Shown here piece by piece: positions 3,731 through 6,450 of a DNA stretch of 37,142 bases; position 1 is the first letter of the stretch; the number at the start of each line of letters is the position of its first letter. Both the position numbers and the translations under genes were made by a program. The notes under the pieces are model-generated. The model did not search any database. It saw only the letters and a list, made by a program, of their open reading frames with translations, and had not been told where the DNA came from. The DNA comes from a bacterium (GTDB taxonomy: Bacteria > Patescibacteriota > Patescibacteriia > PEXW01): contig JAUYFT010000014.1 in assembly GCA_030689605.1 (NCBI GenBank), positions 1-37,142 on the forward strand. The letters are read 5' to 3'.

Positions 3731-3791
3731 TTAGCCCGTAGCTCTCGCTGCGGGCTTCGACCTGAACCACGAGCAAGGGCTCGTGGCTACA
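3731..3791. repeat. Dual-hairpin repeat, copy 1
   Basis: Two adjacent 8-bp hairpins with 4-nt loops (CCCGTAGC/GCTGCGGG at 3735-3754 and CCACGAGC/GCTCGTGG at 3767-3786), ending in GGCTAC. Nearly identical to 6331-6391, differing at one internal base (cttcga versus cttcgg) and at the left edge. Confidence 0.85.
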
Positions 3792-3806
3792 CCCCAAATT
3801 TTCCAT

Positions 3807-3859: not shown

Positions 3860-4345
3860 ATGTACGCCAATATGGAAAATGAGATGGGTATGGAAAATGC
3901 TTCAAAATTCTCTGCCTCCCAAGAAACAACTGAAGCAATGGCAAAGGAAATGTTAGTTCATAAATTTGTAGAAAAATTAGAATCCAAAAAAGATTCACAG
4001 GCGATTATGGCTGAGATAATTCAGTCAACTCCAGAGCAAGTGCAAGTAACCAATACAGATGGTGTTGAAGAAACGTACGAAGCAGACTTGGAAAAACTTG
4101 GTGACATCCTTCAACAATCAAGCGATTCTCCTGAAACCCAACGTGCCATAACATTACTTGAGAATGCACTCAATGAACGCTTAGAAGTATGGTCCGCGAC
4201 AATTGACGAGGATCCATCTGCAACCCGACCAACTAAAATTGAGCACACATTTCCAGAACTCCAGTTACTTATGGAACGTGCAGGGCACGGGCAGACAACG
4301 CAAGAGAAAATTACTGCCTTTGTTGAGAAGTACGCAGAAAAGTAG
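3860..4345 (+). CDS. Hypothetical acidic helical protein
   Basis: I do not recognise this 161-residue protein. It is Glu/Gln/Lys-rich, has no membrane segment or signal peptide, and is probably mostly helical. Base composition is clearly more AT-rich than the genes on either side, which may point to recent acquisition or weak codon selection. It has its own promoter-like sequence upstream and a terminator downstream, so it is a single-gene unit. Met1, Met5, Met9 and Met11 are all possible starts, since none has a good ribosome binding site; the first is used because it lies best with respect to the promoter. Confidence 0.6.
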   Translation: MYANMENEMGMENASKFSASQETTEAMAKEMLVHKFVEKLESKKDSQAIMAEIIQSTPEQVQVTNTDGVEETYEADLEKLGDILQQSSDSPETQRAITLLENALNERLEVWSATIDEDPSATRPTKIEHTFPELQLLMERAGHGQTTQEKITAFVEKYAEK

Positions 4346-4362
4346 ACCGCTATGCGCAGTCA

Positions 4363-4392
4363 AGCCGCTCGGAATTTCCCGGGCGGCTTTTA
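4363..4392 (+). terminator. Terminator after the 3860 gene
   Basis: A 10-bp stem with one G-T pair (AGCCGCTCGG / CCGGGCGGCT, loop AATTTC) is followed by a short T run. The sigma-factor promoter motif begins 4 nt downstream. Confidence 0.8.
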
Positions 4393-4395
4393 GGT

Positions 4396-4424
4396 TGTAA
4401 GGTTTTCCATTTTCTGGTGTAGTA
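4396..4424 (+). promoter_or_regulatory. Candidate ECF-type autoregulated promoter of the sigma gene
   Basis: TGTAAGGTTT (4396-4405), 12 nt, then TGTAGTA (4418-4424). The same two blocks occur upstream of the secreted-protein gene at 5742-5771 with a 13-nt gap. Counted from TGTAAG the spacing is 16-17 nt, normal for an ECF -35/-10 pair. The -10 block can also be read as a TGn-extended -10 (TGT AGTATA) lying exactly 6 nt before the ATG, which would make the sigma mRNA leaderless. Confidence 0.55.
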
Positions 4425-4432
4425 TAAAAGTA

Positions 4433-4993
4433 ATGGATAGCCAATCCGATGAACAACTCGCTGCCGCTGCGCAGACGGGCAACGTACAGGCATTCGGCGA
4501 GCTCGTGCAGCGGTACGAGGCGGCGATGCAACGGTACGCCCGCCGCTTCCTCTTCACCGTTACCGATACGGATGACGTGGTGCAGGATATTTTTCTAAAG
4601 GCCTTCCAGAACTTGCAGAGCTTTGACGCTCACCGAAGGTTCTCCCCCTGGCTTTACCGCATCGCGCATAATCACTTCCTCAATGTCATCCGCAAACGCA
4701 GCCATGAACCCGTGCCATTCTTCGATCCAGACACATTACTCCCTCATCCGGTGGCACCCGACAACCCCCAACGAGACCAGCAGGATGCCGAACTCCAGCA
4801 CGCAATTACCACCTGCTTGGATAAACTCTCGCCGGTACTACGAGAAGTAGTCGTCCTCGCCCTTATCGAAGATCTGCCGCACGCCGACATTGCGGATATT
4901 CTCCACGTACCGATTGGAACGGTTGATGTCCGCCTCTCGCGCGCAAAAGTAAAACTCCGTCACCTTTGCCACCATCTCGCCGAACACCTATGA
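4433..4993 (+). CDS. ECF-family RNA polymerase sigma factor
   Basis: A sigma factor with only the sigma-2 and sigma-4 domains, which directs RNA polymerase to a small regulon, usually in response to an envelope signal. Region 2 is seen at about residues 20-90 (DDVVQDIFLKAFQNLQSF, then WLYRIAHNHFLNVIRKR) and region 4 at about 125-180 (LREVVVLALIEDLPHADIADIL, GTVDVRLSRAKVKLR). The 186-residue length is typical. The stop overlaps the start of the next gene as ATGA, the usual arrangement of a sigma with its anti-sigma. There is no Shine-Dalgarno sequence; the transcript may be leaderless. ECF subgroup cannot be assigned by eye. Confidence 0.93.
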   Translation: MDSQSDEQLAAAAQTGNVQAFGELVQRYEAAMQRYARRFLFTVTDTDDVVQDIFLKAFQNLQSFDAHRRFSPWLYRIAHNHFLNVIRKRSHEPVPFFDPDTLLPHPVAPDNPQRDQQDAELQHAITTCLDKLSPVLREVVVLALIEDLPHADIADILHVPIGTVDVRLSRAKVKLRHLCHHLAEHL

Positions 4994-5715
4994 ATCCCGC
5001 TGACCTCCGCAAACATATCGAATCAGCCATCAACACTGGACGCGTGCACATGCGCCCACGCTGGCACTTTGTCCTCCGCGCAATCATCCGTGTGGCTGCG
5101 GTAACTCTCACTGGCCTCGTCGTGCTTTTTTTGGTGAGCTTCGTACTCTTCACCTTGCGCGCCAGTGGTGTGGGGGTGCTTACGGGTTTTGGTTGGCGAG
5201 GCATGATTGCCTACGTCACCTCGTTGCCGTGGCTTATCATCGTCATTACCCTGAGCCTCTTGGTTCTGTTAGAAATTGGCATTCGTCGCTTCGGCATAGG
5301 GTACCGTCGTCCCATTGCGTACACGCTCCTGGGTATCCTCTTCGCTCTCGCTGTCGGTGGGGTAATACTGGCGCGAACAAATTTGCACACCCGCTGGGAC
5401 ACGGCCGCCACTGACCAACGCTTACCAGTGGTCGGCGGGCTTTACCGCGGCTTCGGACCGCGCGCCCAACACGCTGTTACTCAAGGGGTAATTCTAGAGA
5501 CAACGATGAGTGGTTTCACCTTGCAAGCAGACAGCGGTGAGACCTATATGGTGACCGTTGAAAAAAGTGCACGCATACCAACACCAGAAGCAATTACTCC
5601 CGGTGCCCGCGTCATGGTGGGTGGTGATGTGAAAAATTCCACGATCAATGCTTTTGGGGTTCGGCCTGCCACCGATGACTGGCAGCCAGGCCGTGGGTTC
5701 CGGCGCGGTCAGTAG
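4990..5715 (+). CDS. Membrane protein overlapping the ECF sigma gene, candidate anti-sigma factor
   Basis: The 241-residue product has a short cytoplasmic N-terminus, three likely membrane segments (about 30-55, 72-95 and 106-126) and an outer domain of about 110 residues. That domain contains GVILETTMSGFTLQADSGE and a later PGARVMVGGDV, a beta-rich pattern similar to DUF5666/OB-like folds. I see no zinc-binding anti-sigma motif (HxxxCxxC). The role as anti-sigma is inferred from the ATGA overlap and membrane location. Start ATG 4990 is chosen over the track's 4966 because of this overlap. Confidence 0.7.
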   Translation: MNPADLRKHIESAINTGRVHMRPRWHFVLRAIIRVAAVTLTGLVVLFLVSFVLFTLRASGVGVLTGFGWRGMIAYVTSLPWLIIVITLSLLVLLEIGIRRFGIGYRRPIAYTLLGILFALAVGGVILARTNLHTRWDTAATDQRLPVVGGLYRGFGPRAQHAVTQGVILETTMSGFTLQADSGETYMVTVEKSARIPTPEAITPGARVMVGGDVKNSTINAFGVRPATDDWQPGRGFRRGQ

Positions 5716-5741
5716 CAGTAAAGCCGCCCACCCTGCCGCAA

Positions 5742-5771
5742 TGTAAGGTTTGGTTGGTTGGCGTTGTAGTA
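5742..5771 (+). promoter_or_regulatory. Second copy of the ECF-type promoter motif
   Basis: TGTAAGGTTT (5742-5751), 13 nt, then TGTAGTA (5765-5771), matching the motif at 4396-4424 in front of the sigma gene. A start near 5778 gives a leader of about 45 nt ending in a strong AAGGAGG site for the secreted protein. Confidence 0.55.
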
Positions 5772-5825
5772 CATAGTGCAGGGCGATTCGAAAGCGCCCA
5801 CTAATGTACGAAGGAGGTGAAGTAT

Positions 5826-6248
5826 ATGAAGAAATCCTACATCATAACAGCGGCCATCGTCGGCCTCGGGCTCGTGAGCGCTGGCACGGTGCTGGCTGCT
5901 GGTCCGCTGAACGGCACCGGTCGGCAGACGATGCTCGATGCGAAAGCCAAGGTTATGAACATGACTGCAACACAGCTCCAAACTGAGCTGCAAGCTGGCA
6001 AGACGATGGCCGACGTAGCCAAAAGCAAGAACGTCACGCTCGACCAGCTCAAAACGGCAACAATGACAGCACAGGAGGCGAGGCTCAATGCTCTGGTGAA
6101 AGCCGGGACTATGACCCAAGCTCAAGCTGACGAGCGCATGGCACAGATCAAAGACCGCCAGGCAGACTGCGACGGTACAGGCGCAAACCGCCAAGCCGGA
6201 AATCGCGGAGCAGGCCGAGGTATGGGCATGCGGTTACACGCGAAATAA
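5826..6248 (+). CDS. Secreted small protein of the ECF module
   Basis: 140 residues. The N-terminus is a clear Sec signal peptide (MKKSYIITAAIVGLGLVSAG, likely cleaved near VLAAG). The mature part has two helical repeats: MNMTATQLQTELQAGKTMAD with DVAKSKNVTLDQL, and a helix-turn pattern GTMTQAQADERMAQIKDRQ. The tail is Gly/Arg/Asn-rich. The pattern resembles DUF2680-like exported proteins of unknown function. ATG 5826 lies 8 nt after AAGGAGG; the GTG at 5817 overlaps that site and is rejected. Sharing the sigma-gene promoter motif, it is the likely direct target of the sigma factor, perhaps an envelope stress sensor or effector. Confidence 0.75.
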   Translation: MKKSYIITAAIVGLGLVSAGTVLAAGPLNGTGRQTMLDAKAKVMNMTATQLQTELQAGKTMADVAKSKNVTLDQLKTATMTAQEARLNALVKAGTMTQAQADERMAQIKDRQADCDGTGANRQAGNRGAGRGMGMRLHAK

Positions 6249-6260
6249 TTGCTCAACCCA

Positions 6261-6290
6261 AAAAGCCGTGGGAACCCCTGCGGCTTTTGG
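6261..6290 (+). terminator. Terminator of the ECF module
   Basis: AAAAGCCG / CGGCTTTT (8 bp) around a 12-nt loop that can pair GGG with CCC, followed by GGTTATT. It lies 12 nt after the stop. Confidence 0.75.
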
Positions 6291-6330
6291 TTATTCCCAA
6301 GTCCCTGGTGTGGGCGGCTCCCATTATCGA

Positions 6331-6391
6331 GTAGCCCGTAGCTCTCGCTGCGGGCTTCGGCCTGAACCACGAGCAAGGGCTCGTGGCTACA
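6331..6391. repeat. Dual-hairpin repeat, copy 2
   Basis: Near-identical to 3731-3791: the same two 8-bp hairpins, here closed by GTAG (6331-6334) and CTAC (6387-6390). The remaining 6291-6516 holds this repeat, a GCGAC/GTCGC mini-hairpin, and the next element. Confidence 0.85.
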
Positions 6392-6450
6392 CATAAAACA
6401 TAATACACAGAGTTCCTAGCGACTTCAGTCGCGTGGTTTGGAAAGGCCAC

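Follow-up and report, generated by a model that had tools for sequence, protein, structure and literature searches.

A probable autoregulated ECF sigma factor switch with a local exported output in a Patescibacteria genome

Patescibacteria have small genomes and are mostly uncultured, and the control of their genes is almost unstudied. Does a two-block sequence that is repeated in one such genome belong to a regulatory circuit, and which genes does that circuit contain? The window, i.e. the whole stretch of DNA analysed here, comprises 37,142 nt (contig JAUYFT010000014.1, positions 1-37,142) of the draft genome GCA_030689605.1 (644 kb, 83% complete). A sequence-only reading of the window had noticed the two blocks before an ECF sigma factor gene and again before a gene for an exported protein. 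It had predicted a self-regulating envelope-signal circuit with the exported protein as its main output, and had taken the view that few circuits of this composition have been described from reduced genomes. The latter view is consistent with the literature: our search of the open library, which is incomplete, found no publication that treats ECF sigma circuits in Patescibacteria. With its predicted promoter, its probable anti-sigma factor and one main exported output, so compact a circuit would provide a defined entry point into regulation in Patescibacteria. Its output protein points toward the surface signals that these cells sense, and its promoter code is testable in vitro.

The locus has the following features:

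4362-4389, forward strand: hairpin and TTTT run, probably terminating transcription of the upstream gene (-21 kcal/mol, z -4.0)
4396-4424, forward strand: predicted promoter 1, with -35 block TGTAAGGTTT (4396-4405), N12 and -10 block TGTAGTA (4418-4424)
4433-4993, forward strand: ECF sigma factor of 186 aa, regions 2 and 4 only
4990-5715, forward strand: membrane protein of 241 aa, probable anti-sigma factor, its ATG overlapping the sigma stop codon (ATGA)
4990-5073, forward strand: N-terminal cytoplasmic segment of the membrane protein, a helix (3-15 in the model) and then MRPRWHF, conserved in the alignment
5476-5667, forward strand: external OB-like beta-barrel of the membrane protein, DUF5666-like, candidate sensor (model residues 163-226)
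5742-5771, forward strand: predicted promoter 2, with -35 block TGTAAGGTTT (5742-5751), N13 and -10 block TGTAGTA (5765-5771)
5826-6248, forward strand: output gene for an exported DUF2680-like helical protein of 140 aa with a signal peptide-like start
6261-6288, forward strand: hairpin 3′ of the exported-protein gene, likely to act as a terminator (-20.8 kcal/mol for 6252-6296, z -5.1)

As noticed before, exact copies of TGTAAGGTTT-N12/13-TGTAGTA were present in front of the sigma and exported-protein genes (4396-4424 and 5742-5771) and nowhere else in the window. Allowing up to three mismatches revealed no further copy in the window, where 0.02-0.03 copies were expected per shuffled window. 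A search of the whole 644-kb draft genome returned the same two exact sites and no others, and the control with the reversed pattern gave none. The looser pattern TGTAAGG-N14-17-GTANTA also recovered these two sites alone in the draft genome. Finding only two sites genome-wide supports a regulon that is small and local, its main output being the exported protein; as the genome is incomplete, further targets may be missing. The exact window motif was absent from the three other genomes of the order. Two of these genomes hold a sigma ortholog, and both have a diverged site instead.

The -10 block of promoter 1 ends 8 nt 5′ of the sigma ATG, so the sigma-anti-sigma message is predicted to be leaderless or nearly so. 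Hairpins stand before promoter 1 and after the exported-protein gene, so that the three genes look like one closed transcription unit in which promoter 2 is internal. The hairpin at 4362-4389 was not among the terminators reported by the consensus scan, and consensus scans for sigma-70 promoters and terminators showed no excess over shuffles.

The sigma protein matched Sigma70_r2 (residues 24-90) and Sigma70_r4_2 (residues 124-175) of Pfam at about 1e-15 and TIGR02937 of NCBIfam at 1e-27. It has sigma2 and sigma4, lacks region 3 and has a linker of fewer than 50 residues, as expected of an ECF (group IV) sigma factor. SigW was the closest solved relative of the sigma profile (1e-45). The window sigma was the sole protein with Sigma70 region 2 found in the 83%-complete genome, and it may already have an ECF group number. 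Our survey of the class covered 381 genomes and gave 28 sigma proteins, that of the window included, with more than 150 bits; the next protein scored 121. A scan of named genomes gave further orthologs, almost all from Parcubacteria and related Patescibacteria (Uhrbacteria, Doudnabacteria, Harrisonbacteria, Taylorbacteria, Nomurabacteria and others). We compared 70 non-redundant loci. The sigma proteins have the linker signature PFFDPDxLFPHP in common.

The sigma and membrane protein ORFs (4433-4993 and 4990-5715) do overlap by ATGA, as had been reported. Among the orthologous loci, a homolog of the membrane protein lies directly 3′ of the sigma gene in 70 out of 70; its start overlaps the sigma stop codon in 59 of 69 loci, and 25 of these overlaps are ATGA. 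The structural model of the membrane protein (mean pLDDT 88) begins with a short helix at the N-terminus; three membrane helices follow, and then a five-stranded terminal barrel. Judging from charge and topology, the N-terminus would lie inside and the barrel outside. The window protein belongs to no Pfam or NCBIfam family. None of the anti-sigma models in Pfam and NCBIfam matched the membrane family above the cut-off, and a profile search with the family revealed no relative among solved structures. For the barrel domain, a fold search gave weak matches that included short OB folds (IF1, CusF and others), none of them below E 0.001. DUF5666 (PF18914) matched five of 29 relatives weakly and below the cut-off (best E 0.0054), and the window protein was unmatched.

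The N-terminal segment, a helix followed by [KR]P[RK]-aromatic, ranks with the best-conserved portions of the membrane family. From the alignment and the model, it is the best candidate for the sigma-binding part. Class I (ASDI/zinc-type) anti-sigma factors have a multi-helix cytoplasmic domain of at least 50 residues; in our model, the cytoplasmic part has about 25-30. Class II (CnrY-like) domains have two wrapping helices. Here, we saw one helix (3-15) and, ahead of the first membrane helix, a conserved stretch, and the protein cannot be assigned to class II (PMC7406223).

Using the same profile, we found membrane homologs adjoining divergent ECF genes in Woesebacteria, Saccharibacteria, Dojkabacteria, Peribacteria, Aerophobetes (9e-48) and Chlorobiaceae (about 1e-11 to 1e-14). 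They were missing at most ECF loci from Acidobacteria, Verrucomicrobia and Akkermansia. Eight membrane homologs of divergent ECF loci were scanned, and no Pfam family exceeded the cut-off. Homologs that stand beside divergent ECF genes and lack a Pfam family make a good candidate for an unnamed anti-sigma family. Judging from adjacency, overlap and conservation, the membrane protein of the window is probably an anti-sigma factor of this family. For a new anti-sigma class, the chances seem about even; it would combine a one-helix sigma-binding segment, three membrane helices and an external OB-like sensor, with exchangeable outputs in Patescibacteria, and would occur in Aerophobetes, Lithacetigenota and Chlorobiaceae as well. 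The unnamed family would add a new anti-sigma architecture and allow many uncharacterised ECF-adjacent proteins to be annotated. Four ECF loci of Chlorobiaceae (L097, L098, L100 and L110) have distant membrane homologs with a similar N-terminal PRW-F motif.

The sigma factor and its promoters might work as proposed, with the membrane protein serving as an effector or as an envelope protein under the same control, the sigma factor being controlled by its own transcription. Exported proteins sharing the DUF5666-like domain act as outputs at some loci, as this reading would have it, but the membrane protein was invariably adjacent to the sigma gene and frequently overlapped it across the 70 loci, and it adjoins divergent ECF genes in other phyla. 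Although its cytoplasmic part is very short and gave no anti-sigma match above the cut-off, few parts of the protein are as well conserved as this N-terminus with its helix and [KR]P[RK]-aromatic motif, and class II anti-sigma domains are likewise short and helical (PMC7406223). We therefore regard an effector role in place of sigma control as rather unlikely, and continue with an anti-sigma role as the preferred reading.

A two-block promoter model was trained on the 70 sigma upstreams only. It converged, in 52 loci, on a -35 block TGAAATAAA, a gap of 12 (32 cases) or 13 (18 cases) and a -10 block TTGTANTA. At thresholds of 6-12 bits, 74%-70% of the sigma upstreams passed, compared with 6%-1% of shuffled sequences; about a quarter of the orthologs had no recognisable promoter 5′ of the sigma gene. 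The held-out upstreams of the exported family exceeded 12 bits in 25 of 26 cases, and the single failure was an N-masked upstream. Comparatively, only 1.1% of shuffles and 1.4% of random windows did so. In the 200 bp around and after the end of the membrane gene, the promoter was present in 49 of 65 loci, against 0.9% at random. The earlier reading had named the absence of the motif from orthologous clusters as evidence against the circuit. Instead, a homologous ECF promoter occupies the same two positions in most loci (sigma upstream in about 52 of 70, after the membrane gene in 49 of 65). A strict pattern gave 32 sites in 23 of the 381 class genomes, compared with two for the reversed control, and at least 20 of the sites lay within 4 kb of an ECF gene. 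The family promoter was present at several distant ECF loci of Patescibacteria, and was not seen at the distant ECF loci of Acidobacteria, Verrucomicrobia and Chlorobiaceae.

Across 49 loci, the median distance from the -10 block to the start codon was 8 nt for the sigma gene versus 53 nt for the exported-protein gene. In the window, a ribosome site, AAGGAGGTG, precedes the exported ORF (5826-6248). Such a site is not general in the family, as it was found in 6 of 26 exported genes and 2 of 70 sigma genes. Within a locus, the sigma promoter and the output promoter agreed at 14.6 of 17 positions (38 loci), compared with 13.2 when loci were shuffled, and 0 of 5000 locus shuffles gave an agreement as high; base composition and relatedness may account for part of it.

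SigW-type promoters have the -10 element CGTA and the whole form TGAAAC-N16-CGTA. With its consensus TGAAAT/C...N12-13...TGTA, the family promoter is of the SigW/RpoE type, and its form is that of the classical SigW-type ECF promoter. The -35 element of SigW, TGAAAC, is known from structure (PMC6713349). The -35 of the window, TGTAAGG at both promoters, is diverged from the family consensus. A model trained without the family of the window scored the two sites at 10.4 and 9.4 bits, which ranked third and fourth in the window. Thus, the family consensus alone is insufficient to single out the sites; the identity of the copies and their positions do so. In SigW, K170 contacts the template G opposite C-31 (PMC6713349). 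Most family members have G at the aligned position; the window sigma has D there, and the -31 base in the window is G. This suggests a matched change of sigma factor and promoter.

If the two-block motif were an operator for a separate transcription factor, the sigma gene would be a mere neighbour. A departure of the window motif from the family consensus could be read in this way, but a spacing of 12-13 with the blocks TGAAAY...TGTA is that of a SigW-type ECF promoter (PMC6713349 for the -35), the site tracks ECF genes across the class at promoter distance, and none but the sigma gene was seen as an accompanying regulator gene. An operator therefore seems very unlikely. Chance similarity, or a duplicated DNA stretch carrying the same 10-mer and 7-mer, can practically be dismissed even though there are two copies only and their blocks are identical, because homologous sites occur in most orthologs, the held-out exported-upstream test (25/26) refutes it, and the two copies differ in the bases between and around the blocks and, by one base, in their spacing, which argues against a recent duplication.

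The exported-protein family had 28 matches within the 70 loci. DUF2680 (PF10925) matched 10 of 13 family members, a weak but repeated match (best E 4.9e-6); the window protein itself, at 17.1 bits, is below the curated cut-off of 25. The protein is helical with a disordered Gly/Met-rich tail, and its fold search matched nothing at the threshold of E 0.001. Met- and Gly-rich tails were noted, with 6.1% Met against 2.7% (membrane family).

In most cases the output is DUF2680-like, and in some loci other exported proteins take its place. The promoter precedes an HlyD adaptor at L045, L046 and probably L114, an FMN-binding protein at L061 and a 49-aa exported peptide at L007, which is from the same genus. 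A DUF5666 exported protein lies 5′ of the sigma gene with the promoter at L045 and L057, and similar proteins are found in L064 and L068. The exchangeable outputs all point to the cell surface.

The exported DUF5666-like proteins 5′ of the sigma gene (L045, L046, L057, L064 and L068) share the external domain of the membrane protein; in several loci they come with a promoter copy of their own, and they could permit feedback by competition. At L077, the same promoter is followed by a small exported Cys-rich output (5091-5378) with a metallothionein-like stretch (CPCQ...CECT...CNCNGGGCACQ), a hint of metals. A metal-sensing role was considered from the Met-/Gly-rich tails, the Cys-rich output of L077 and the HlyD adaptors in some loci, and was rejected as the evidence is too thin.

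We consider it likely that the locus encodes an autoregulated ECF sigma/anti-sigma switch with one or few local exported outputs. This reading draws on the motif occurring twice in the genome, the clear ECF assignment, the adjacency in 70/70 loci, the conservation and co-variation of both promoters and the model of three helices and a barrel. Counted against it were the cytoplasmic part of about 25-30 residues, shorter than described anti-sigma domains and with no anti-sigma model above the cut-off, the window -35 far from consensus, the quarter of sigma upstreams without a promoter and the incomplete genome.

In the proposed switch, the membrane protein would be translationally coupled to the sigma factor, and its short N-terminal helix would tether the sigma factor, inactive, at the inner face of the membrane. 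An external change sensed by the OB-like domain would free the sigma factor, which would take RNA polymerase to the two SigW-type promoters. Transcription from promoter 1 would give positive feedback through a leaderless sigma-anti-sigma message; transcription from promoter 2 would give the exported DUF2680-like protein as the effector, presumably with a protective role. Of the envelope circuit predicted earlier, the small local regulon and the exported protein as main output gained support, and we infer the anti-sigma and sensing parts and the use of the sites, that is, sigma binding by the membrane protein, release by a signal and transcription from both promoters.

The predicted switch resembles SigW-RsiW of Bacillus subtilis in having an ECF sigma factor with a membrane anti-sigma factor (here probable), a promoter of the form TGAAAC-N16-CGTA, an operon shared by the two genes under a promoter whose autoregulation is here predicted, and an envelope signal, here presumed. 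Unlike RsiW, with its class I zinc-type domain and one membrane helix, the protein of the window has about 25-30 cytoplasmic residues, three helices and an external OB-like domain. The regulon of SigW is large, whereas two sites were found in this draft genome. The very short helical cytoplasmic segment is like that in CnrH-CnrY of Cupriavidus metallidurans, whose anti-sigma factor is of class II. However, CnrY has two helices (PMC7406223) and one clear helix was seen here, the membrane topology and external domain also differ, and no sequence relation between CnrY and the membrane protein was seen. The external domain, which in some relatives matches DUF5666 (PF18914) weakly and below the cut-off, is joined in this family to a membrane part of three helices, encoded next to an ECF sigma factor.

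Two further features flank the locus:

3732-3792, no strand assigned: left copy of a 61-nt direct repeat, possible block boundary
6332-6392, no strand assigned: right copy of the repeat, 98% identical to the left copy and 2600 nt away

The repeat consists of two small hairpins. It occurs in exactly two copies in the draft genome and is missing in three relatives. The copies bracket a 2.6-kb block that contains the sigma module and the gene at 3860-4345, and the pair may be the vestige of an insertion or recombination event. A search for plasmid relatives of the block found none. The whole module, with the exported-protein gene 5′ of the sigma gene, is present at L073 on a contig assigned to Candidatus Psychracetigena formicireducens (Lithacetigenota), which is outside Patescibacteria. 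This occurrence may reflect transfer or misbinning.
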